Origin: Bryopsis sp. KO-2023
Lineage: Eukaryota; Chlorophyta; Ulvophyceae; Bryopsidales; Bryopsidaceae
Direction: 5' to 3'
Assembly: GCA_030272585.1 (NCBI GenBank)
Contig: BSYQ01000014.1
Span: forward strand, 310,001 to 374,000
Length of the DNA: 64,000 nucleotides
Position 1 is the first letter of the stretch; each line of letters opens with the position of its first letter. The position numbers and the translations under genes are program-made. This document shows, piece after piece, positions 7,018 through 55,100 of the stretch. Under the pieces are notes generated by a model. The model saw nothing but the letters and a program-made list of their open reading frames with translations. It was not told the DNA's origin and ran no database searches.

Positions 7018-9004
7018 CCTGTGCGTTGGTTGATGGATGCGCGATCGGAAGACGCTCTTGGAGGGAGTCGCGTGCAAAAGACGTGAGAATAACGACGAAC
7101 CGAGCCTTCCTCCACTCCGCTCCCTGCCTGCACCAAGAAAACGAAGCTCGCGCGGCTGGATATTAGTCACCCCACCCCATGTCGGTCAAACCGCCTTTGA
7201 AACCACTAAGAATAGACCACTCAGCCGATCGCTTGGCGGAGGGGCCCCCCCCAGCAGATTTCGACAGACTCTGGTACGCTGATGTTTGGGGGAATGGGGA
7301 TGAGTGTGGAATGCGAGCGTCACACCCTGCGATTATCGTTCAGTTATGAACGGTGGAGAGGGGTGGAACGCTGGGGAGGGAGAGTGTGTCAGGACTGGTT
7401 TTTTTTTCTGAATTCTGGTGGGTGGGGGGCCGACTCGGCAAAAATCGACGACTTTTGTAGTGATCAAAGTTACAAGGGGGATGTTAGACTTGGCCTCATA
7501 ATTGATTCTTATCAATGCATGGCTGTCCCACACACATTGCTCTGCAGTTATGACTTGGTAAATTTGTCTTGTGCAATGGATGCCGAGCAGCATCTTTGGA
7601 GGTGTGGAATGGATTAATTCAGTTGGTCAGCCTCAGGCGTACAGCCCCAGCAACTTCTTACCCCCCAGATTTCAGTTGGGGGTAGTTGGTGGCAGTTTTT
7701 ACTGTTAGGACTCTGGGTTGTGGTATTTGAAGGGACTTTGGTCGGAAGAGGGATTCTACTTTTCACAATCTAAGAATCTAACGATGTGAATTCAGTATCA
7801 TGTGATCTTATTTGTTTTGTCTGCTTGTTGCATAGTTATGTTGAAAAAAATTGGAGTCAGCTCACCAAAAAAAAGGGAAAGGATGGAGCCACTGGTTGAT
7901 GTGATGACTCCCTTTTGCTGTGGGTTTTCAATCGGATCGATTGACAGCGATTCAGGGACTGTGGGAGGAAAGTTGAAGAAACTGAAAAGAACCCCCCCCA
8001 AAAAATCCTCTAATTCAGTTTTCAGATTTTTTTTTGTTTTCTTGATTTATTTTATTCCAGTTTTCGTAAAATTCCAAGGCATTGCTTTTAGTTTTCAGAT
8101 TCGAATGGCATTCGCAACAACTTGTGAGCGGACTTTGGAAATATCTTTTCATCGGTTTTCACTTTTAAATGCTTTCTTCTTTTTTTTTTTTGGGGGGGGG
8201 GGGTTCTAGAATATAGTATTTACTCACCTTGGAACGCCAAAAATACACCGAAACAATACATACATATCGAATTCCAAACTTGGAATTCAGATTTCCCCAA
8301 TGTAAATTCATTTTTTAGTGTTGGGGGATACACGATTCGACAGGTTACGAAAAAGACTGATTCGCTATTCTTACAACCTAAAGATAGATCAGCCGAAAAC
8401 CAATAATGCCCAAATACAATGTCCCTGACGTTTAACCCCCCCCCCAAAAAAAAAAATAAATTGTATAGTCTACCCAGCCCCAGAAGATTCACTCCAGCTA
8501 GTGCCAAATCCTATCACAAGTTTGCCTTGAACGAATTTGAAACCTACAGACTCTACTGGTGATTTTTTTCCATCCACACGAAACTGCATTTTTTGCCAGT
8601 ACAGGTGGTACCGCCCCCCCCAAAAAACAACGAATTGTTCGAAAGAAAGAAAGGATATGAAAAAAAAAACATTCAGACTGACGGTTTTGACCGTTGTAAC
8701 CCTACCGAATCACGTCAAGAAAACAAACCCCCTCTCCCAAAAAAAACAAGAAGCAAACCTTAAACAACAATTAAAAAAAACACAGTGTAAAAACTCCCAA
8801 AAAAAACGAAAAGAAAAAACAAAAGAAGAAGCGACAGAACCTCTTCAGCAGTCCATTCATGCCACACAGATATTAGTCATATGTACAATTCATCAGATTT
8901 TCCCTTCCTTTTCCTTTTCCTTTTCTATTCCAATTTTTTACTATTCTTTTTTCAAATTTCTTTTACTAACTTCCCTCTTTCGTTTTTCTTTTTTTCCCCC
9001 AATG
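7018..9004. other. Spacer between the two kinases
   Basis: This stretch holds a dispersed-repeat copy (about 7665-7800), a T(n)G(n) homopolymer junction near 8175-8205, a C(n)A(n) junction near 8438-8458 and A/T-rich sequence. AGACGTGAG occurs near 7078, upstream of kinase 1. I see no exon. Confidence 0.55.
7665..7800 (+). repeat. Dispersed spacer repeat, copy 2
   Basis: It matches copy 1 through GGGTAGTTG, TTAGGACTCTGGGTTGTGG and TATTTGAAGGGACTTTGGT, and extends into ACAATCTAAGAATCTAA and ATGTGAATTCA. The last parts are shared with the copies near 18050 and 26090. It lies about 650 bases upstream of the kinase 1 ATG. Confidence 0.75.
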
Positions 9005-10714
9005 TCATTGGAGACTGCAACAGCTGCACCCCGATTTATTCGGACTCCAAAACAGCTCCTCGGCTTTTATCGCCTGAAGGCCCCTCACAATCTCGTCTGC
9101 ATTCGGCCTCTTCCCTTTGTCTTGTTCCCAGCACCTCCTAACCAAAGCCGACAATTTTTCCGGCCAATATCCAGGAATCGGTGGCCGTTTTCCCTCCGAA
9201 ATCGAGTGCGCGAATTCTTCGTCGGTGGCTATGTCCCCCCCCATGGATGACAGCATCAGCATCAGCAGCTTCCTGTGGCAAACCTCGAAAATCACCGTCC
9301 CCATGGAGAAAATGTCGCAGCTTTCGTCGTAGGGCTGGCAGCTGTATACCTCGGGGGCCATGTACATTAGAGAACCGGTTTTTCCTGTCAGAGAAGATCC
9401 CAGTTTTGCTGAGCTCTGTTTCGCTGAGCTTTGTTTTGCTGAGCTTTCTTCTGCAGCCTGGAAGATTCAACAAAAAAGAAAAAAAAACAGGTTGGTTTGG
9501 TTCGGTTTGGTTGCTTTTTTTTTTTGCATGTAAATCACACAGAAAAGGTGGTTAGGGTGGGGTGGGTTGCACCGACTGACAGACCTGGTTGAATCCTTCC
9601 TGGAGCTTCCTTATTTTTTAAAACTCAAGAATTACAAACCGGATGTTACTGGCCGATTCAAGAACGGGCAGCTTTTTAGAAGGAAAATAATTTTAATTTC
9701 CTTGCATGGTTGTAATGACTACGTGCACGCAAATTCGTCGACGACTTCTTACGATATCTCGGGGGCGTTCCTCGACTGGGGGGGAGGAAACCGCCCCTCT
9801 CTTTTCCACAGAGCGACCGGGTTCGCCGCCACGCACAGCGACGCCGGTTTGGGATTCAGCGCTACGCGCCAAACTCTGGATGTTTCGTTCACCAATAATC
9901 AATGTTTTGTTTACGAGGGGGGCGCCTTTCGGAAACTCACCTGCACCAGCTCGCCGTCGAACGCTGCTTTTCCTGGAAGCTGGGACAAATTCGCGTCAGT
10001 GTTATTCTCCCCCAGAGGCTGTGCTTTAGCTTTCGACCCGGCCAACGCGTGCAATCCGAAATCCGCCAGCTTGGCGACGACTTCCCCCGCATCCGTTTCT
10101 TTCAGCAGGATGTTCTCCAGCTTGATGTCTCTGTGGATGACTTTCGGTTTCGAGGTGTGCAAATATCTCAGACCCTTTGCCACCTCGACCAGCCAGTCGA
10201 TAGCTTGGATGTCCGTGTAAGCCCGCCCTGCCCCGCTGCCCATTTGCGACATAACGACGGATTTCATCGTCCCCCCGTTCATATACTCCTGCACGAGGTA
10301 CACCTTTCGCCTTAGATCTTCCACGTCCCCCTCCATCGCGTCCAAATCCGTCGAGCCCACCCCCAGAAAATCGACGATGCAAGAGTGACTGAGTCGTCGC
10401 AGCAGATCCGTTTCGTCCAGGAAATGCTGCAGCTCCTCTTTGGACTGAAAGATTTCCGGCTTGAGTCGCTTCACCGCCACTGGCCGTCCTTTCCCATCCG
10501 ACGACTGGAGGGTGCAGAGCTCCACGACGGCATACGCACCTTCACCCAGGTCTCGGACGTACGTGAGCTGCTGCGGATCCACCACGGCGTTGTCCCCCGC
10601 CATGTCGCGCAAAGTTTTGAACGCCAGCGACGTCGCCACCGCCTTCTTGACGCCCAACTGGGCGATGGTCCAGAGCTTCTGGCCGTCTCTGGCATTCGTC
10701 GCGGGTTTCTGCAT
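9005..10714 (-). CDS. TKL-like protein kinase with C-terminal CaaX box (paralog 2)
   Basis: There are two exons, 10714-9941 and 9457-9005. The donor is GTGCAG|GTGAGT and the acceptor TTCCAG|GCTGCA, phase 0, at the same place as the paralog's intron. The product is 408 residues. Motifs seen: GEGAYAVVEL, VAVKRLKPE, HRDIKLENILL, ADFGLHAL, then after the insertion GKTGSLMYMAPEV. The C-terminus GCSCCSLQ again forms a CaaX box (CSLQ) behind a Cys cluster. The two kinases are clearly similar over the whole catalytic domain but diverge in the activation-segment insertion, where this copy has three tandem S-S-A-K units. A local gene duplication followed by divergence is inferred. Substrate and pathway are unknown. 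Confidence 0.85.
9401..9445 (-). repeat. In-frame 15-nt tandem repeat in the kinase activation segment
   Basis: Three 15-base units of the form AGCTCAGCRAAACAR lie at the start of exon 2 and encode SSAKQ, SSAKQ and SSAKL. They fall between DFG and APE, a loop that controls kinase activity. The paralog has unrelated sequence there. Serine-rich units could be phosphorylation sites (inference). Confidence 0.75.
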
Positions 10715-31273: not shown

Positions 31274-34200
31274 TTAAAACCAGAATTCCACATAATCATT
31301 GACCCGATGCATAACGGCAGACAGCCTGCGACGTTGAGGGTCCATCGTGAAAGAGGAGATGCTTTCCAACCACTTGAGCTGAGCCTCCGATTGCGGCCAA
31401 ATCTTTGAATATTTTCTCTCACCGTTGGGCCGATCGCTGTCGATGATGCTGGCTCCTTCGTCGTCGTCGTCGCCGTCGCCTCCGAAAATGTCGTTTTTGC
31501 AAATGGACTGGGACATTTCGCTTTCGGAAATCATGTTGGCGTATTTTTCCACGGATTCGGGAAGGGGAGCATCCTCTTGGTCTTTGGTCAGAAGATACAC
31601 GCCAAAAAATACGACCTGGAGAATTTGATTTAGAAAAAAAAAGGGGGAAAAAATTAAAACTGTGAGGATTTGTGAAATGTGAAACGATCAAAAATTAAGG
31701 ATGACAGACACAGATGCATTTTTTTTTGGTCTCCATTTTCTTTTTATTATTGTTATTATTTTTATTTTTATTTTTATTTTTTTTATTTTTTTTATTTTTT
31801 GGGGGGGGGAATCGTCAAGTTAGGAGGATACTATCAAAAAAAAAAAAAACATTTTGGTATATTTTTTTACAAACTACTTTTGCTGTCAAAATTATTTAAA
31901 AAAACATCCTCCCAAAATCATCTGATCAACATCATTCCACAAACTATATATTATATTCTATTAATATTTGAAAATTTATTAGTCATTTTTTGAAAGTAAT
32001 TTTCGACACAATAAAATATGCAGGTAAGAAAACAGAAAATATTTAAAATTTAAGTTTAAAAAAAAACTCACTGCGACAGCAAGAGCAAACATGAATCCGC
32101 TCAAGGCATTGAAGCTTGTGTATTCCTCGAAATACAACATTCCAGAAAGAATGGAAAACAGAGTCCAGCTGATTTGCATGGTCGGTACGATGATCAGCGC
32201 AGGGAAAAGTTTCAATGCCTGTCAAATCACTTAATCATCAGTGAAAATGAGACCCCCCCCCCAAAAAAAAAAAAAAGAAAGAAAGAATCAAAAAAGAGGA
32301 GAAAAAATGAATGAGAAAAAGTGAGAAGTGCGGCGACTAATCAGATCGATCAAATAATCCATTTAGTCTATAGGCGATGATTTCATCCTTCCCCCCCCCC
32401 CCAAATAAAATTAAAAAAAATAATAAAAAAAAATACATATATTTTTATGATGGCTTGATTGTTTTTCCCAAGTCTTGCAAACAAAACAATCAGGTTTGAG
32501 TGAGCAAAAACTTCACATCAGTTTCCTGCAAACTGAATTCCACAACTCAAAAATTTGATTTTTTTTTTAATAAAAAGGAAACTGGGGTTTTCAGGTAAGA
32601 AATTGAAATTCTTACCTTGTTTAGGCGAGTCACCCAGAAAGTACTTGTGAATAAGAAAGTCAGAATGATTATCCACGTAAACCAAGAATCCAACTATGCC
32701 AAAAAATGCCAAGAAAACACACACACAAAAAAATAAAAATAAATTCAGTTCCAACAGGTTAGGAAAAAAATATAGATTTATATATATTTTAAGAAACGTA
32801 GCCACCACCAATATATAGTATTACTGTTATTATTACTAATACTATACTAGTGCTCTTATTACTAATACTATATTAGTGAAATATTTTAATTTTTTTTAAC
32901 CGCTGAAACTGGATCCATGAGCGCTCAAAACAGCCCTCTCCAAATTCCAGCTATTCATCAAACCTTATATTTCTTAGGGCGATAAAAAAAAATAGAAATA
33001 ATTCAGCGTAAGCAAGTTGTTTCAGAAACGAACAAAAAAAGCAGAATTGTTTGAGCACCCCTTATAAAAAAAATTATGTTCATGAGCAAAAATGAGATTA
33101 AAAAAAAAAAAAAACGATTAAAGAAGAAAGTTGAACTTTTTTTTTACCTGACTGTTTCCTCCAAACGTTACTCTGAGCAACGTGGAAAGGGTTTTGCTGA
33201 ACAGCACGCTTTGAGTGCCGAGCAGTCCGCTGAACAAGGCATAGGAAACCGGCAACAAGCGGTTCCAAAACGGACCCAATCCGCTCAACCCAACCTTGCT
33301 GGAAAAAAAAAACACATAAAAAACACAAATCCACCACATCAACAAACAAAAAATAAAATTCACAGGAGTAGAAAGTATTTGGACGTATTTTTCTCTCTTT
33401 CACAAAACTTATTTTAAAAATGCAATAAAGAAGGAAAAGAATTTAACAGTGCTTTCCATATTCAGTTTTTTTTTATAATTTTTCCCTGGGTGAAAAAAAA
33501 ACAAACATTTAAACCAACCACCAAATGCTGAATGAAAACACAAAAAAGAAATCCACCAAACAGAGGGATGATTGTCTAGATTATTATTGTTCAAAAAGAA
33601 AAGGGAAAAAAAAGTATAAAGTACTCACTTCATTTTCGTTTTGCCGATCCGGTAGACCCCATATGTAACCACGACTGTTATCCCCATGAAAAAAATGTAA
33701 CTAATATACACTGGCCTGCAAAAAAAATTGAAAAAAAACCACAGATAATCAATCAATCAAAATATGAATATTCATATTTGTATGTCCAGCTTTTTGGTTT
33801 CCCGTCCTGTTCTCTTCGGAGGTATTTTCTGTTTAGAAAAAAAAATACATATATTATACAAAATAAGTAGAAATCCAAAATATGTATACAAGAGAGGGAG
33901 AGAATTTTGAAAGGCTGTCCCCTCTCAACAACTTTTTCTTTCCAATTCCAGCGCTCATACAATGTAAAATCTGTGAAAGAAAAAACCCTCTATTTTAATA
34001 ATCTCGTTCTTTTTCAACCACCACCTTAATCTTCCACCCCCAAAAAAATTGAGATAAAAAATGTAGTCAAGTGAAATTAATATTAAATTTCGGGATATTC
34101 AAAGAAAACACACGATTTGACGGATAAAAAACTGCAAAACCATATATTTATCAAGAAAATACTGACTTCCAGCACAGATTTATCTTTTACTACAAAACCA

Positions 34201-36635
34201 TTTATTTGCTAAAACAATCCTGACCTCCTGTACAAATCCATCATTTACTGGAAAACAATTTATTTGCCAAAAAATACTGACCTCCTGTACAAATTCATCA
34301 GCTCTTCGACGGTAAATTGCTTGGACTCATGACTACCAAACGAAACCAATGTCACGCATCCAGTCACAATGCACAGAGTTGCAAGCACCACCCCTTTCGT
34401 CACCTGGTTAGGCAGATTTTATTTTTATCCAAACAAATATATCTATGAAAAAAAATAATAATAATAAAAATAATAACCACAACAGTTCTTTTCTCAAAGT
34501 AATGGTCCATCGTTGGAAAAAAAAATAATTCCACAAATCACTTCACGTAAATATTTATGTAAGATTTGAAAAAATAAATATGAAGAAAAATACAACAGGT
34601 ATTTTCACTCAGCACTAAAATTGGGATGCTTCGGGACACCATGACTCCTACTTCAAGTTCTGAGTCAGACTGGCACATTTTTCCATGAGAAGGGCTGCAA
34701 AACTCAGCTAATACATTTTTATACATTTGTTTATACCAATTGTATTTATTTATAATCCATATTGTACAATTATGACTAAGCCCAATCGCTCACACCTACT
34801 TTCTCTTTCAGCACCAGGGAGGCGAATAACACATTTGAAATGAACTGAACAGATCCCAGTGCTGCCAGCAATGATTGAGCTGCATAACCTGGTTCACATT
34901 GCAAAAAAATAATAATTTAATTTGAGTTTTCCCCCATGCATAAAACACAGTGGAATGAACTATATTGAAGTCAAAATTCCCAGTCGCTGAAGAAAAACAC
35001 ATGTAACAGACTCCACAAGAAATTGTTTTCCTGGTGGTTTCTGGGACAAGAGGCGATCTTTCAAGAAGAAAAAAAATTGCTAGTTTTTTGTGTAATTTTG
35101 TTTTGTTTTTTAATATATATATATATATATTTTATTTTATTTTTTTTTTTTTTTTGGGGGGGGGGGAGGGGAATGTTTTATCTGGGTTTTTTTCAACTCA
35201 CCAAATGATATGAAGTTTGCCACATTTCCCACAATGAACAAGAACACCCCGATTTGCCACTCACGAAATTTCCTGAAATTCAGGGGGGAAGAAGTTAAGA
35301 AAAGAGACTGAAATCAAAAAAAATAAATAAAAAAATCTTGGGATATAAACATGCCGTATTGTAGAGCAATATGAACCATGTCCAATTTACAGTTTTTTAC
35401 TCGAGCGATTGAAATATTTCTGAGAGGTTGGAAAGATCACCCAATGATTTCCCAATGTCGAAACTAGGGTTTCACATTTCCTGTTGATGCTATGGAACGG
35501 TCCATTTTCCTAAAAATAGATGGTTAGTTTTCTTACTTTCAAAACAAAAGGAAAAGAGCTGGGTGAAGTTTCTCAAAAATTTATCAACTTTTTCTGGGGC
35601 AAAAGAACGCTAGATAAAACAATATTAAATTACAAAAAAAAAGAAAAGAAAAGAAAGAAAAAAAATCATAAGAAGAAGAATAAAAAGATATGGAATGTAT
35701 ATATATATATACCTGATCGCCAATTTTTTCCCTATTCTTGCTTCCCATTCTGCCCTTTTGTTGTGTCCCAATTTCATGACGTTCTGAATCGGACAGGGAA
35801 AAAAAAAAGACACACAAAAAAAAAAAAAAGTGGGAAAAATATATAATACAATGTAGTAAAACCACTTAAGACAAGAAAAAAAAAAATTGTGCATGGGAAA
35901 AAGGGGGGAAAAAAAAGGTAAGGTAAAGTTTGATGACTAGCTGCCTTGTGGAAAAAAAATTATATAAATAAGTGTATATATACATATCAGTTGCCTCTGG
36001 GTGGAAAAAAAAATTATATAAATAAGTGTATATATACATATCAATTGCCTCTGATGTGAATCCTTGAGGTCATAGGGAAAGCCAGGGGCAAAAAAAGAAG
36101 CCCTAATAGAACCCAAAAATAATAATTTTTCGTTTTTGAGGTGCCTTCTGCCTACTGATAGCGTCGCTCCAGCTCATTACCGTGCCCAAGTTGATCATGA
36201 TGCTGCCCACCTGGAAAACGAACCACCACAGCGACTCAATATTTCCCTTCGACGTCTTTCCCGCGACATCCGTCGGGATGTTTTTCAATCCTTTTTTTTT
36301 TTTTCCCTTTTTTCCATCCTCGCCGAGGACAGAAAAGGATGCAGTCTCCCTATTCTTACCAGCGTCGCGCCCGCTTAGTTTTTTTTTTCAAAAAAAAGAA
36401 ACTCGAAATGGAAACGTGTTCAATCGACTCGAGAAAACCCGCGAAAAACGGACCAGGTGAAAAAAAAAACCCATTCAAGAAAAACAGGAAAACAAAGATA
36501 TTTGGGTGGATGCATCAAAAGACACCCAGTTTTAGTTTTTCGGAGAGAAGGCACATATTGAAAAAACAAAAACTGGAGCGGGGGGAGGGAAGCCCTTACC
36601 AAATTTATAGCGGCGCCGATGTACCAACCTCCCAT
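31274..36635 (-). CDS. NIPA-like (DUF803) magnesium transporter family protein, 11 exons
   Basis: Exons are 36635-36600, 36210-36181, 35783-35713, 35272-35202, 34888-34800, 34403-34282, 33715-33629, 33298-33148, 32693-32616, 32218-32072 and 31615-31274. Together they make 1,224 nt, in frame, 407 residues. The start MGGWYIGAAINLVGSIMINL and the following NVMKLGHNKRAEW are typical of the family. So are FREWQIGVFLFIVGNVANF, AAQSLLAALGSVQFISNVLF and the later VPTMQISWTLFSILSGMLYF. About nine hydrophobic segments are seen. NIPA proteins are drug/metabolite-superfamily membrane proteins implicated in Mg2+ transport. The C-terminal exon adds a long acidic cytosolic tail (GGDGDDDDEG). Substrate is inferred from family only. 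Confidence 0.88.
34139..34301 (-). repeat. 57-bp tandem triplication carrying exon end and 5' splice site
   Basis: Three copies, about 58 and 57 bases apart (block starts 34163, 34221 and 34278 on the plus strand). Each contains, in sense, the exon-6 end GATGAATTTGTACAGGAG, or a variant, followed by GTCAGTATT. Each of the three also has a downstream TTTTCCAG-, TTTTGTAG- or TTTTGCAG-like acceptor. Only the first copy joins the open frame. The others lie in intron 6 of the NIPA-like gene and preserve GTCAG in all three. Confidence 0.85.
35948..36054. repeat. 53-bp tandem direct duplication in intron 2 of the NIPA-like gene
   Basis: Two near-identical units start GTGGAAAAAAAA and run through TATATAAATAAGTGTATATA to TTGCCTCTG, differing by about two bases and one indel. 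This is recent local slippage or duplication. Confidence 0.9.
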
Positions 36636-37137
36636 CCTGACACCGACGCCACGCAGAACCGAGTCGCGATGTTTCTGTTTCTTTTCAAAACCGGGGTTTC
36701 CTCTCTCTTTCGCTTCGGGAATGAATTCTCAACGGCACGAAACTCTCGACTTCAGTTTTTTTGTCAAAAAAAAATCAACAAAACAAAAGAGGCGCGCGCG
36801 TCACTATGTGATTTTTCCGTTCGTTTTTTTTGCTTTTCGTTTTTTTTTTTCTCCCTTTCTCGCTGCTGTGCCCCCAACCAACAGAAACAGATAGACGGAA
36901 GACGTTGCTGGGAGGAAATACGGGAAGGTCAAAACCACACGCGACCGACGGGAAAACGTTGCAAAAAAAAGTGAGAAACGCGGGATCAGACGCGGCCAAA
37001 GAGGAAAAAATCGCCGAGACGTCAAGATGAAAAGACGTCGATAGCACCCAGCCTAGCGCAGCATCCAACCAACCAACCAAAAATAAATCACATGCCAGGC
37101 CACAGCCAGCCCTCCCAAGAGCACAAGGAAAAAAAAA

Positions 37138-37187
37138 CGTAGAGGCCTGGGCTTCTACGCATGTAATATTGATTGATTGATTGATTG
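37138..37187 (+). mobile_element. Short retroposon-like insertion with (ATTG)n tail and target-site duplication
   Basis: The 50-base insert begins CGTAGAGGCC, can fold as a ten-base-pair hairpin with GGCTTCTACG, continues CATGTAAT and ends in (ATTG)n. It is flanked by a direct repeat ACAAGGAAAAAAAA (37123-37136 and 37188-37201). A 3' hairpin, a short-repeat tail and 10-15 base target duplications are what 5'-truncated LINE or SINE insertions look like. A second insertion of the same element is at 54930-54971. No parent element is in the window. Confidence 0.75.
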
Positions 37188-37338
37188 ACAAGGAAAAAAA
37201 ACCCTCAGCCAAACAAACAAACATCAATTACATTTAAAAAAAAACAAAAAAAATCCTCAGCCAGCAAGGTTTACGTCCCTTTTCTCCATCTACACAATCA
37301 ACTGGAAGCAAATCATCAACACAAGAGAGGGCTCGTTT

Positions 37339-37365
37339 CCCGGGCTTCTGCGCATGTAATTTTTG
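37339..37365 (+). repeat. Degenerate relative of the (ATTG)n retroposon
   Basis: CGGGCTTCTGCGCATGTAAT is followed by TTTTTGGTTTGG instead of the ATTG tail. It is either an older copy or a subfamily. Confidence 0.5.
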
Positions 37366-38160
37366 GTTTGGTTTCCACAAAAAAGGGATGGCCTCGTTTT
37401 GCTATAATGTAATGTAATTGAATTGTTTCAAAAATAGGTATGCCGTGGAACAACACAAGCGCGTAGTAACGGCATACATCCAGATCTGGCCTACGGCACA
37501 GAGCACATCCCATATCTATCTATAAATATATATATATCCAATATATGGATCCAAGATTTTTTTTGATGAAGTGATTGTCTGGTATTGGGTTGCGGGCAAC
37601 ATGTAATCATGGATTGATTGATATCCAATATATCCGATACGAACGCACAAGAGTGGTGGATGGATCATCAACCTGATGCTTGCAACATGTCATACGTAAG
37701 ACTGGAGATTTCCTGTTTCCACCTCTGTCACCTTTTTCTCTTGAAAACGAACAAACATAAAAAACAACATTCTCTTTGACGGAAAAAATATTTGCAACGG
37801 AGGAGATGCATGCATATCTAGATCTGGCAGAGATTCTCTGGATGTCAATATTTAGTTGTACATCAGCAAAAACCGACAGAATTCTTACAAACATGCCAGG
37901 CCAAAGCTTTTTGCATTATAGAAAACAACAAACCATTTGCCAGCAAGGTCTACCAAATCGAGCTGTCCCGATAAAAACAGCAAGAACTATCCCAATGCTC
38001 TCCTTGAAAATCAAATAAGATCAACAAGGAAACCGCTGCAAAAGCACACTCGGATATCAGAAGAATTTCATCCAAGAAGGAGGTTCTCAACATCACCGTC
38101 ATCTGCTCATTCTGAAGGATAGGGGAAGATCAAATTTTGGATGGATTATGTTTGTATGCA

Positions 38161-49100: not shown

Positions 49101-52100
49101 GCGTCCCAAATTGAAAGCTTGTCCGCACAGGCGGCACTCTATGTAGGAGATCCGGCCGACGGAAGTTCCCTCCCCTGGAGAATGGAGCATGATATGGGCT
49201 CCCCACTGCGATTTTATGCTGCTTTCGTCACCTTGTACCACCACGTTACGGGTAAGCACCCCAACCTCGGCCCTGCAGATGCAACAAAAGTTTATCCTTG
49301 TTTCACTTCAAGCCCCTAGAAACACACACAGACATGGTTATCTTCCTACCGCATGTCGATCTCCCGGTCGCCATATTCCAGCAACTCTCCAAAATGGCGA
49401 TATTTTATTGGCGGATCGACCTCCAGTGTTTTCCCGTCGACTCCGACCACGGTGAGCTCCTCAGCCTCCTCAAAATCGTAACTCGTTGAAGCAAGAACAA
49501 TCTTGTCCCCAACTTTCCAATTGACAGCCTCCTTCAAGTTCAGCACGGTATCCCCCTCTTCGACAGTTTGAGTGATCTGCGTCCACGTGGGTGTTTTTGG
49601 AGCTCCATGCATGTCAAGCTTCCCATAGCGGATCGCGATGTTCTTGGCCCCGTACAGCGGGAGCTCTTTTTCTGTCGTAGGATGCCCATGCAGAGTGATG
49701 GTGGCCTGGTGCAACAATAGGAAACATGTTGGACGAAACGTGGGTCATGAGCTGCAGCCAAGAGGACTCTGTCTGAAAACAAGACGTACAATGTTTTGGA
49801 AAGGTTCGTCTTCAGTCCCCACTATCAGGTGACCTCCCCGAACGAAGATATAGCTGGCTTGGAGATGTATGTCGCTGGTGTCGTCAAACTGCAGTGTTCC
49901 TTCGATGATTATCAGCACGAGCTTCGGGGGGGACACATCCAACAAAATATTTTGTCCTGGAGGAATCACCACACTCTCCCCTTCCCTACACACATCGACA
50001 GCGTTGTCGAACATTCCCCACATATTTCCCAAAGTTGAACTATATAGCTGAACTTATAGCTCAAGTTTTGGATCAACAAAACGGACCACGTTCACTTAAA
50101 ATACTCTCCATCTCGTGAGTTTTGCCTCAAGTTTAATGATGGCAGCGTTGTATGACGCAGTTGCAGAGGCCTCTGTTTTGGCATGGTTGTGCCCATACCT
50201 TGGTGGCGCTTCTCCTCCCCAGGTTGTGGTTGCTGACCAGCGATCAATGTACAGATACGTCAGTCTGTTGGTCGCTGCAGCTCCCTTTCCACTGATGACA
50301 ACTTCCAGGGATGGCTGGACAAACGCCTCCCGATATCCAGTGGAGCACACGACTTCTGACTCCGTGGCTTCTGTCACTTCGCAAGGGACGCCGTCGACCG
50401 TTACGCTCACTTGAGCGATCTAAGATAGCAAAAGGGGGAGGTGATACAAACACGGAAAAACTCGATAATGGGGAACTCATGTCGCCACCACAACCACGTG
50501 GCTATGAGCTTTGCGGTGTTGTTTCCTAAAGCAATATATTCCTTATATAAGGACAACTCGAGGAACTCACGTCTGTAGAGAATCCAGTTCCAGCGATTGT
50601 GAGCGACGTTCCCCCCGCTGTCGTGCCCAGCTCCGGAGAAATGCTTGTGATGTTGGGCGTCAAAGATGGGGAGTATTGGAAGGCTTCCGGCAGGGCGGCA
50701 GTCAGCATAGCATCAGAGGATTCTCCAACACCGACCGTGATATTGCACCGTTGATCGTCGCTGTCTGAAAAATGGACACCATGAAACTCCACCTCCCCAA
50801 CTCGGCAATAAGAACCTTCAGGGCCTGCGTAGCGAAGAAATCTGTACAGAGGCGCGTCACTCTCCACCTCGTAGCTGGTGTAGCCCTGGGGGGGTTCCTC
50901 GTCTACGGTGAGAATCTTATCATAGGAGTTACCATCGTTGGATCCCTGGAGCACGAGAATGGCTAGTGCCTTAGAACCAGAGATTTCAGATAAGTTGCTT
51001 GGCAGTGGTTTCTCAGGAATGGAAATCCATCCAGACTTCGAAAAGAATTCTTGAAACCTTACCCAGATGCTAGCCCAATGAATTCTTTGAGTTCCACGCC
51101 ATCCCGCTGAAGAATACGCTTCTGGGTGAATTCGAACAGATGTCAGCTTTACCAGGGCTCCCTGTCCAAAGTCCTTCCCCAGGTAGCAATTATTCGAATC
51201 GTATGCATAAAACCGTGTGGAGTAATCTCCGTCGAACGCTTTTTCTGCTGAATTCCTGTGACGTGACGATATGATCTCCCCCATGTCCAGCACTCGAATA
51301 TCATCAAGGCCATAAGACGAAGCAAGCGAGGGGGTTACGATTGGGGAGGTGATGCAAGTCAGAGACGTGAGCGTCACTTCTTGAGCCTTGCACTCCGAAG
51401 CGCAAATCGATACCCTTCAAACGAAAATGCAGTTGCCGTTTCAGTAATAAGGTCGAGTCTATAAAGCCACAATGAGGAAAGAGATCACCGATAGCTGTGA
51501 ACGAAATTGCAGATTAAAAAATAAATTGCACATCTACCTGTTCAGCTCAGGGTTTGTGGAAAACCCAGTTCCTTCGATAACAACAGTGCTGCCTCCAGCT
51601 ACACTCCCTGACGTTGGAGACACGCCAGTGAGGGTCAGGCCTCTTTCCACTTTGCCATTGCTTGTAGAGATCGTTGCAAACCCCAAGTTTTTGACCTCCA
51701 CCAAAAGATTGTATGTCCCTGCTGGCAAGTTGGCGACGGATACCTCCAGCGATGTGGTTTGTACAGACAGGACGGGAATCTCAACATCTGTGTAACCAAG
51801 AACACGAAGTCAACCCTAAGAATTGCTCAACATTCCTTTTGTTTTCTTCCGTCGTGGCTCAAGGGGTTGGTACTACGCACCATCAATTTCTTTTGCCGTA
51901 ACAGTAACTTCCTCAAGGTTCGATCCGAACCCAGATCCACCCCAGGTTATTATGGAGGTGTCTTCATCATATCTCCTGCTGCTTATGTTGGGACCCTCAG
52001 TCAAGTATGCCACATTGCAAGAATCAGGGCAATTGTGCTCTGCAAGAGTCTCTTGGTCGCCATCCAAGAGTGTTACTGAGATTGGGTGGGATCCAGCACC

Positions 52101-55100
52101 ACTATCCGTCGTCACACAAACAAGTTTCGACCACGAAATAGCCTTGGGAATGCAAGCGTGATCATCAATCTGCAGGGGAAGCAATTGTGGCGCAAAAACT
52201 CAGTGATTAAACTTAGTGTGAATACAATGTGTCCCTGATGTGGGGATTAAAGCGATGAAAAACATACCATGACGACGAAAGATTCTGCCGACCCAGGTGT
52301 CTCAGAGCTCTCAGAAAAACCCGTTCCTGTCATCGTAAGCGTAGCCCCTCTGGGAGATATTTCGTTTGGTGACACGCTCTCTACTGTTGCTTTGTATTGA
52401 AGGATGGGCAATCCTGATGCAAAGCCCTTATCCTCAAAGTACACGACGACCCTACAAGGATGGAAAGGAATGCGTCGCAACTCAACACGAGAAGTCGGGA
52501 AAGCCTGTTGCTCTTGTGTTAGTTCCCACCAAGCAAAAGAATTCCGGGCGAAAGAAACGCGAGAGGATGACGCACCTGTACACTCTTGCCAATGTTTCTG
52601 GAAGGAGAATCTCCACCGAGGAAGTACTAACGTCCAAAACATCGCAAGGAAAGAAATCACTCAAGTCTGCATACAGGGGGTCTCGACATGTCTCCAGGTA
52701 ACACAGCGTCCTATTCGGCGCAAGGTAGACTTGTATTTGTTCTTGACTGTCGAAATCCCCCGAGATGGTGATACGATCGCCGGCTGTTCCATCCAGTGTG
52801 GCATTCTCGGTTACGTTCGGCGTGTGGTTGAGCGAATAGGTGAATTTGCAGTTTTCCCCTGCCTTCATCAGCTCCCCCGCATCTACGGAAGATAATTTCC
52901 GTCGAGCAGGTGGAGGAGGAGACGGAGCTGGTGGTGGTGTCTGTGGCGGCGGAGATGATGGAGGTGGAGGTGGTGTCTGTGGAGGCGGGGATAATGGAGT
53001 TGGTGGAGCTGGTGGAGGTGGAGGTGGTGAAGCGGAAGGTGACGGAACGCTGCATTGAGCGTAATAGTTCTTCATTGCCGCTGCAACGAGCAAAGGCTCG
53101 TCTGGATCATCGTTCAGTACTGGTCCCGTAGCGCAGATAATGGTCGTGTAGTTTTGCTGTATTATCTCACACGGACTGTTGTAGATCCCAACCGAGACCA
53201 CGTTGGTGTCGAAACCCACTCCATCCCCAAAACCACTCCCCTGGATGGTCATGACCGTTCCGCCTTTGACACTACCTTGGATCGGCGTTATGCTCAAGAT
53301 TTCGAACTCGTAGCGAAAGCTGAAGGAGCCAATCGCTTGTCCATGCCCTTCGAGAAAGACCAGAACATCGTAGGACCCCGGGGTTCCTCCGTCCGTGTAT
53401 GCAGAAATCTCTGTTGGCTGTACAGTAACCAAGGTGCAAGGGCTTTCGCCAAGCATGACCGTGATTACGCTTGGATCCGTTCCGAAGCCCGTTCCCGAAA
53501 TGGTTATCAATGTCCTGGCAATACTGGGACCCCCGTCCGGACTGACGCCACTGACAACCAAAGAATCGTCATAGGTGAATCTGAAGGTTTGTGTCTCGCC
53601 GTTTATTGTGACGACTCCCTCAACTTCGCCCGTTGTGGTCCCTGGTGGAGAAACGAATTGGAGGCTGGAAGACGACGCTTTGGTGACATTTGCCTCGTTG
53701 CCGTCAATAGTGACTGTCACCTGGAAAATGGCATGTGGGAGTGCTGGCTGGTCAAGAATAAAGAACAAAAAAACACACATTTGACAGGAATGTCGTTTTA
53801 AAGCCAACGCTTACCTCGCTAACGCTCTCTCCAAAGCCAACTCCAGTCAAAGACACTGTTGTGGCGCCAGCGAGCGAACCCAGACTCGGACTTGCTGAAA
53901 GTATTTCCAGATCATTCGATATCTCGATGCCACCTGCTGCAAAAGAGGGCGGGAAACTTTCATAGAGAAGATGTTCTTGATTTTGTCGGCGTTGTTGCAG
54001 TGCAAAGGCTCAACCACGACCCAAAAAACGGCTCAACGGATGAACAACTCACCGGTGTCAACTGCCAATCCTTTATCCGCTATGTAGACCTCCACTGGGT
54101 GGAGGCCTGCGGGACCGCCGTCAGGGAGGTTGCAGGTGATTTCAGTGTCGGACGAGGCGCTCACTTCGCATTGGACTGCAGCAATCTCTACTCTTGGAGT
54201 CAGACTTCCAAACCCTTCTCCACTTATTTGCAGAGTTCGAGATCCATCCCCCGGTGTTACAGCCAAATTGGTTGCAGAAGGCGTCTCCTCCACCAGCCCC
54301 TGAGTTTTTGTATCACCAATAGGTAGGTATGCTCGCAAATGTGCAAAGTTTTCGTGTTTTCGAGTTTTTGTGGTTTTTTTTATGTTTAAACATAATGTCC
54401 AGACCTCCCAATAATGCCAGTATTTTGAACTGGGGATTCAGCAACGATGATACCAGTAACTTTTGCTTGTGAGGTCGTCTACTCGTACTGAAACACAGAA
54501 TGATGTGGGGTTTTCGTTTTGGCTTTGATCAGTTTGTCAGAAAAAACATACACTGAAGCTGCAATTTGTGTCCCCGCTGCAAGTGCTCAGCATCTCGTCC
54601 ACAAAGACGTGCACTTGTGGATTGTTTTCGGGAGTGACCAGCATGTCTGACGGTATGGGCATGTGGAGCTGATCGGTGTGGCCCGCTACCACCTCCCACA
54701 CATCGGTCAACAGAGTCGAGTTTCCAATTCCTCCATAGAGTCCACTATCGTCCAGCTCAAGGAGCTCCTCCACATCCCCAAAAGTTGAGGAGAATGTCAC
54801 AAAAAATGTTGGCTTGCCCGCATACCGATTCTGGCTCACGATGACAGGACCACCTGGAGCAATTCAAAAGCGCAAGAACTCAAAAAAATGTTATAAAAGA
54901 TACGTAGAAACGCCGTTGCAGAAGATGGTTTTGGGCTTCTACGCATGTAATATTGATTGATTGATTGATTGAGAAGATGGTGCAGGAGTTATCCTTGTAA
55001 CTCCTTGTAACATATTTGAATGCTTACCGAACAAGTTATCGGAGTTCACAGATTTTTCAATCGCCCTGTAGTCAGTGTTGAATGGAAACGATTCGGAGGA

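Follow-up and report, generated by a model that had tools for sequence, protein, structure and literature searches.

What kind of mobile element leaves insertions only 42 to 50 bases long, each with a target-site duplication and a tail of tandem ATTG units? The question is raised by a 64,000-nucleotide stretch of the genome of the green alga Bryopsis sp. KO-2023 (contig BSYQ01000014.1, positions 310,001 to 374,000), called the window below, in which an earlier note had described two such insertions and had suggested either a severely 5'-truncated LINE or a minimal SINE. Both insertions lie where they were reported and each has its own direct repeat, of 14 and 10 bases. A third copy, of a sister type, had been overlooked. 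The features of the window are as follows (forward strand where marked +).

37123..37136, +, left target-site duplication of copy 1, ACAAGGAAAAAAAA (read from the sequence; duplication score 14)
37137..37187, +, copy 1, a type A 5'-truncated LINE 3' end (covariance model match, 27.9 bits): extra bases at 37137-37139, TAGAGGCCTGGGCTTCTACGCATGTAAT at 37140-37167 and (ATTG)5 at 37168-37187
37140..37157, +, family hairpin retained by copy 1, arms TAGAGGC / GCTTCTA (from the fold)
37188..37201, +, right target-site duplication of copy 1, ACAAGGAAAAAAAA (sequence and duplication scoring)
37335-37340 and 37371-37376, candidate 6-nt duplication GTTTCC around copy 3, too short to call
37341..37370, +, copy 3, type G, core at 37342-37360, tail TTTTTGGTTTGG (model match, 17.6 bits, E 0.054)
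54920..54929, +, left target-site duplication of copy 2, AGAAGATGGT (duplication score 10)
54930..54971, +, copy 2, a LINE 3' end truncated at the hairpin loop, GGGCTTCTACGCATGTAAT plus ATTG tail; its first bases, 54930-54932, are extra or target-like
54972..54981, +, right target-site duplication of copy 2, AGAAGATGGT

The 19-base core common to the copies starts at 37149, 37342 and 54933, and these are the window's three matches at up to three mismatches; the maximum over 100 shuffles was 0. The third copy, whose core reads GGGCTTCTGCGC and whose tail is TTTTTGG(TTTGG)n, lies 193 bases downstream of copy 1, and duplication scoring there chose another, weaker pair over GTTTCC. Copy 1 folds into a hairpin of 9 pairs with a 4-nt loop (-12.3 kcal/mol for the centroid to -12.8 kcal/mol, z -1.89), and in copy 2, which is without the 5' arm, the hairpin fold is absent (z +1.55). 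The ten-base-pair hairpin that had been described just before the tail is thus present as a hairpin, but its length is partly an accident because in copy 1 the outermost two pairs involve the CG at 37138-37139 where the family has AA (AATAGAGGCC); long type A copies instead form 7 inner pairs and an outer helix of 3. An origin from a tRNA or an Rfam family was discarded, the search of the window having given no match to either. Copy 2 may occupy an intron of a gene for TIG/IPT domains or adjoin that gene: minus-strand open reading frames with these domains lie at 50526-53807 (-) and 54700-55040 (Pfam 5.4e-31 and 3e-8), and a splice-like GTAAGC was judged by eye.

The family extends well beyond the window, contrary to the absence of further copies by which the earlier note would have been refuted. 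In the genome (91,088,769 bases, or 91.1 Mb, in 28 contigs) the core, taken with A or G at position 9, is matched 171 times when up to two mismatches are allowed, and the reversed pattern has none. One hundred of the 171 were listed (56 with no mismatch and 44 with one) and 98 examined, C14:1111402 and C14:1210301 being left out. Type A copies end in ..GTTGCAATAGAGGCCTGGGCTTCTACGCATGTAAT(ATTG)n and type G copies in ..CTTGCAATAGAGGCCCGGGCTTCTGCGCATGTAATTTTTGG(TTTGG)n. Some type A tails (L028, L072 and L080) pass from ATTG to TTTG units; the tail unit thus changes while the hairpin is retained.

Target-site duplications were scored in 82 unique copies, that is, the 98 less 11 merged by flank similarity and 5 second cores of a tandem pair; L008 and L011, one event by their flanks, were both kept with their differing tail lengths, and since both score 8 the counts at 10 or more are unaffected. 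A score of at least 10 was reached by 27 of the 82 copies and by 13 of 401 mispaired controls, in which the left flank of one copy was set against the right flank of another; at 12 or more the counts were 14/82 and 4/401. With a frequency so far above the control, the duplications proposed in the window belong to a genuine pattern. The remaining 55 of 82 scored below 10, a shortfall attributed to age and to duplications that are short or lacking.

Could the copies have arisen at the level of DNA, through microsatellite growth, break-repair filler or segmental duplication? Segmental duplicates do occur. In five places (L099, L101, L105, L121 and L123), which have long flanks in common, the 5' arm is missing and a tandem pair of 22 bp, TGGCTTCTACGCATGTAATATT, is present; they are segmental copies of one event. 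Sixteen more (L124 and 15 further places) hold a stub consisting of ATGTAAT only (duplication TTGTCTCC) within near-identical flanks, so this stub was later spread by a larger repeat. Both groups were removed before counting, and the duplication of L030 is of little value as evidence, since this copy lies within a tandem repeat. Elsewhere, however, flanks are mostly unique, duplications exceed the mispaired control, and the order of core then tail is fixed, with a matching LINE end. These observations make an origin at the DNA level scarcely credible.

The matching LINE end is seen in the longest copies. L026 and L029 have 1535 bp in common at 99.5% identity, L028 joins them over 915 bp at 91%, and all three terminate in the hairpin and an ATTG or ATTG-TTTG tail. 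Intermediate truncations exist as well, L019 sharing 144 bp and L024 90 bp with L026, end included. When ten-kb stretches were compared, the body common to the long copies came to 1695 bp (up to 1.7 kb); most copies have nothing long in common upstream. In L031, a 766-aa open reading frame (7146-9443) has its stop about 65 bases before the core. Its protein matches Pfam RVT_1 at 9.6e-24 and, among PDB entries, the RNA-directed DNA polymerase 8c8j at 5.8e-25, L1 ORF2p at 6e-25 and R2 at 2e-15; by this comparison the type A reverse transcriptase (RT) appears to be L1-like.

These copies combine duplications of variable length, variable 5' truncation and, for type A, the 3' end of an RT-encoding LINE, as products of target-primed reverse transcription (TPRT) do. 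The copies in the window and the genome are 5'-truncated copies of a LINE that appears to be L1-like. The severe truncation suggested by the earlier note is borne out by long copies that carry an RT reading frame and exactly this hairpin with (ATTG)n, by truncation lengths that vary and by real duplications, and the LINE that it had proposed to look for, with the same 3' hairpin and ATTG tail, exists. For type G no parent LINE was identified (one of the searches covered L001-L030).

The alternative in that note, a minimal SINE or an independent tiny element with a small RNA of its own, mobilized by the LINE via their common tail, did not hold up. The imbalance in numbers speaks for it: there are 171 short cores, and when the best 59 of 485 candidates of a genome-wide protein search were scored, the 60 matches listed held 5 rows (4 elements) at 89-100% identity to the type A protein, the others being at 33-38%. 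Against it, the 5' ends are spread from 0 to more than 1500 nt upstream, with no head in common. What lies upstream is LINE or target, and the longer copies reach into the LINE's 3' UTR and reading frame. Neither a shared non-LINE head nor a cognate SINE with the same tail was seen among 98 of the 171 cores and 60 further places. The minimal SINE was rejected on the absence of a common head from the copies examined, and we consider it very improbable.

The hairpin itself is not peculiar to type A. Five LINE families (A; L040; L039; L054-L063; L051/L053) and the orphan type G have the same 3' end architecture: a helix of 3-5 pairs, an internal loop starting AA, an inner helix of 5-7 pairs, UGUAAU and a repeat of varying unit. 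Six ends each fold alike on their own, with z from -0.72 to -3.55, modest for type A (-1.50) and type G (-0.72). Across six aligned ends (A, three of type G, L040 and L039), 98.1% of cells are paired, as against 37-59% when the alignment is slid. One pair has changed on both sides (U-A to C-G), two have changed on one side and 5 of 9 are invariant; with shuffles matching the double change in 292 of 500 cases and the paired percentage in 40 of 500, covariation gives the shared hairpin modest support.

A covariance model was built without the two F families (L051, L053-L063), because a MAFFT alignment of all families misplaced them, and these served as the hold-out. At E up to 1 it gave 26 matches in 12 F-family loci, and all 26 lie at F-family 3' ends and are followed by a repeat tail; individually they reach E 0.26-0.97 and 12.5-14.8 bits, the best match in the window besides the three copies being 11.9 bits. 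The F-family hairpin precedes tail units as varied as CCTTGTTT, CCTTGTAT, CCTTGAAT and TCTGTT; turnover is thus quicker in the tail unit than in the hairpin. A conserved 3' stem-loop and a short tandem repeat tail, the features of stringent-type LINEs, are both present.

How short the copies are must be judged from a sample that does not favor a particular length. Selection by the core biases the sample, since it admits no copy that has lost the core, and an apparent sharp stop at the hairpin loop was dismissed as a selection effect of the core GGGCTTCT. A length-blind seed, ATGTAATATTGATTG, ignores the sequence upstream; it occurs at 71 places (control 0), all of which were examined, and after 16 were merged as duplicates 55 unique insertions of the ATTG type remained. 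By gapped alignment to the LINE end, in 45 of these 55 the LINE sequence begins fewer than 27 nt before ATGTAAT, that is, inside the hairpin. Truncation is spread through the hairpin with no pile-up at a single base: the stop rate per nt is 0.057 at 0-9 nt, 0.056 at 9-18 nt and 0.077 at 18-27 nt, and beyond the hairpin it is 0.026 (27-54 nt) and 0.017 (54-108 nt), a drop that rests on 10 copies; two of these, L129 and L130, have similar downstream sequence and are perhaps not independent. Three of the extents (L019, L026 and L029) were assigned manually. When flanks are merged under a looser similarity rule, 24 of 30 copies stop within the 27 nt and the trend is unchanged. At the extreme, L157, L171 and L138 have no matching LINE base before ATGTAAT, with duplications scoring 13, 10 and 12.

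Other families lose sequence in the same region. In type G (102 places with the seed, 100 listed, 32 of them with the known core and 12 of the other 68 examined), the insert of L181-L183 is ATGTAAT plus tail; these three have flanks in common and, by eye, look like one event. In the LINE family represented by L040 (DUT), 109 ends carry the seed, and 49 of the 100 listed keep the whole hairpin at up to two mismatches. Loss inside the hairpin is thus not confined to type A, although the DUT losses may pool truncation, mutation and an element B described below. A run of at least 9 type G seeds at C16:1095588-1168670 (-), all in one orientation and several spaced 3,828 or 4,798 bases apart, probably belongs to a larger repeat arranged as an array.

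The drop in stop rate upstream suggests that the hairpin itself halts or slows reverse transcription. The same retroposition might instead be carried out by a poorly processive enzyme, with 5' ends joined at microhomologies and the hairpin posing no barrier. This would suit the spread of stops over the entire 27 nt, and some 5' junctions (L015, L020, L070 and L079, judged by eye and outside any statistical count) look like microhomology; yet upstream of the hairpin stops become some 2 to 4 times less frequent per nt and two copies continue for more than 1500 nt past it, both on small numbers. An enzyme of this kind is quite conceivable, if somewhat doubtful.

Taking the copies together, we put the probability at roughly 0.87 that they are TPRT products of the RNA of an L1-like LINE, with a 3' hairpin that would act as both handle and barrier and whose DNA is in turn targeted by element B. 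The last ~35 nt of the LINE RNA before the tail would comprise the conserved two-helix hairpin and UGUAAU, followed by the short tandem repeat. By analogy to stringent-type LINEs, the LINE protein would bind the hairpin and nick the target, and the freed target end would prime on the repeat tail; many duplications start with TG or TTG, as pairing between primer and repeat might produce. Synthesis would usually end in the first ~20-45 nt, mostly in crossing the hairpin, and the short cDNA would be joined, perhaps via microhomology, and sealed in.

Which protein did this work is a separate matter. No endonuclease domain was seen in the type A copies, so a related LINE that is still complete, for example of the L040 or L056 family, may have produced the small copies in trans. 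The relatives L039, L040 and L056 encode an endonuclease (PF03372; 1.4e-10, 1.6e-8 and 1.7e-11) and RT in a single reading frame of 1085-1098 aa, the L040 and L056 families have near-identical copies, and hairpins are alike between families; L051 shows RT only. Just downstream of the endonuclease-RT frame, in another frame, two LINE families also carry a dUTPase reading frame (L040:3770-4234 (+) and L039:3816-4235 (+); Pfam PF00692, 4.1e-32 and 2.9e-39), to our knowledge an unusual cargo for a LINE. On the other side, tails and loops differ among the families, and stringent LINEs are reported to be strict for their own stem-loop and to read its loop specifically (PMC4176376). Supply in trans is rather unlikely.

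Several LINE copies are interrupted in the 5' arm of the hairpin by another element, here called B. Its strand reads ..TACGGACTTGTGTAAT or a near variant, then 2-4 bases, then GCCTCTATTGC, which is the bottom strand of the hairpin arm, and the arm is duplicated across B over at least 9 bases in L013, L023, L037, L077 and L082. Genome-wide there are 109 exact B cores. The arm motif GCYTCTATTGC follows within 1-8 bases after 55 of them (control 0), and the 3' arm, GCTTCTDCGC, follows none genome-wide by exact pattern, with one possible case (L155). Behind 31 of these 55 B ends (23 distinct LINE ends) an opposite-strand LINE end lies within 6 kb, at 47 to 5188 bases, when 100 listed DUT seeds and 56 exact A/G cores are taken as LINE ends; ten controls with sites shifted by 40-200 kb gave 0, 1, 0, 0, 0, 0, 1, 0, 0 and 1 of 55. 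At the examined loci, which are biased to LINE ends, GCYTCT follows 12 of 14 distinct B ends, the exceptions being L025 and L155. Element B is site-specific for the DNA of the LINE 3' hairpin. Ends followed by GCTTCTATT mostly have TA as spacer, and those followed by GCCTCTATT mostly AAA or AAC. A strict pairing of B versions with hairpin versions was rejected, as L132 has a TA spacer before GCCTCTATT (the GCCTCTATTGC version).

Element B codes for protein: the 260-aa C-terminal reading frame of L037 was matched 140 times, in several cases within open frames some 1050-1100 aa long. The 260-aa C-terminus had no significant match in Pfam, NCBIfam or PDB, and among 150 matches listed there was no RVT_1 match beside the B frames compared (C10:924307, C1:9472016 and C2:742655). 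Lengths of B vary while the 3' end stays constant, so B is probably a retroelement. Its C-terminal stretches CxxC..H..C and RPAD..VIDVTV presumably resemble those of the restriction-like endonuclease (RLE) of R2-like LINEs (CxxC..H..C and RPxD..VIDVT), and its enzyme may be of that class. One B-protein match, at C5:1611776-1612003 (-), falls in a frame reported open for 21,547 aa, possibly a long stop-free tandem array or a giant gene. The motif TGTAAT stands just before the tail in both the LINEs and element B. TGTAA is a polyadenylation signal in green algae, and the motif may belong to host RNA processing.

A three-way contest at the hairpin is attractive, and we hold it tentatively, at a little under even odds. 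The hairpin that the LINE needs would stall its own reverse transcriptase and leave, in at least one family, mostly stubs of 20-50 bp that seed (ATTG)n and (TTTGG)n microsatellites; the same hairpin would be the preferred landing site of B, a hyperparasite of LINEs that follows it as it changes, B versions mostly matching the hairpin version (GCCTCTATTGC or GCTTCTATTGC; exception L132).

Parts of this arrangement have precedents; both LINEs with a 3' hairpin and target-specific LINEs are already known (PMC4640811, PMC3747384). The nearest are UnaL2 of the eel and ZfL2-1 and ZfL2-2 of zebrafish, members of the L2 clade that likewise encode RT and have a 3'-terminal stem-loop and a short-repeat tail, TGTAA repeats in UnaL2; in such stringent-type LINEs the stem-loop is a binding site for the protein, and the repeats contribute to the initiation of synthesis (PMC3747384, PMC4176376). 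The Bryopsis elements differ in an RT that is L1-like by PDB comparison, in the two-helix hairpin with internal loop and fixed UGUAAU, and in copies most of which are shorter than the LINE's 3' UTR, and recognition of the hairpin by the protein is here proposed by analogy. An L1-type element with a conserved 3' hairpin is known from maize and sorghum, where LINE1-1_ZM has it in the last ~50 nt with compensatory changes in the stem; SINE partners (ZmSINE2/3) occur there, and plant L1 elements mostly carry poly(A) tails (PMC3747384), whereas no SINE partner was found in the copies examined here and the tails are ATTG, TTTGG, TATGT, TCTGTT and others.

Element B is like the target-specific RLE-type LINEs R2, NeSL, Utopia and CRE in inserting at a single sequence, but what it targets is DNA of the 3' hairpin in other LINEs. 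Tx1-group and Zepp elements insert into transposons, and B, as a probable LINE-type element that targets another mobile element, is like them; its own target is the 3'-end hairpin of several LINE families. Transposons are named among the targets of target-specific LINEs in PMC4640811. In the literature covered, with most subscription papers outside it, no report was found in which hairpin-truncated stubs make up most of a family, or in which a mobile element targets the 3' hairpin of other LINEs.

A family whose insertions mostly end within the hairpin offers a natural dataset, with stops at base resolution, on the trade-off between recognition and copy-through in stringent LINEs. Its stubs, 7-30 LINE bases plus a repeat, are easily filed as microsatellites and suggest one route by which microsatellites arise. 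It would be an unusual instance, if true, of one mobile element following the essential RNA structure of another, through the conserved LINE end that it takes as target. The window also contains an AT-rich stretch at 32000-36053 (GC 33% over 32001-36000) with tandem repeats of a 58-bp unit at 34131-34300 and of a 54-bp unit at 35948-36053.
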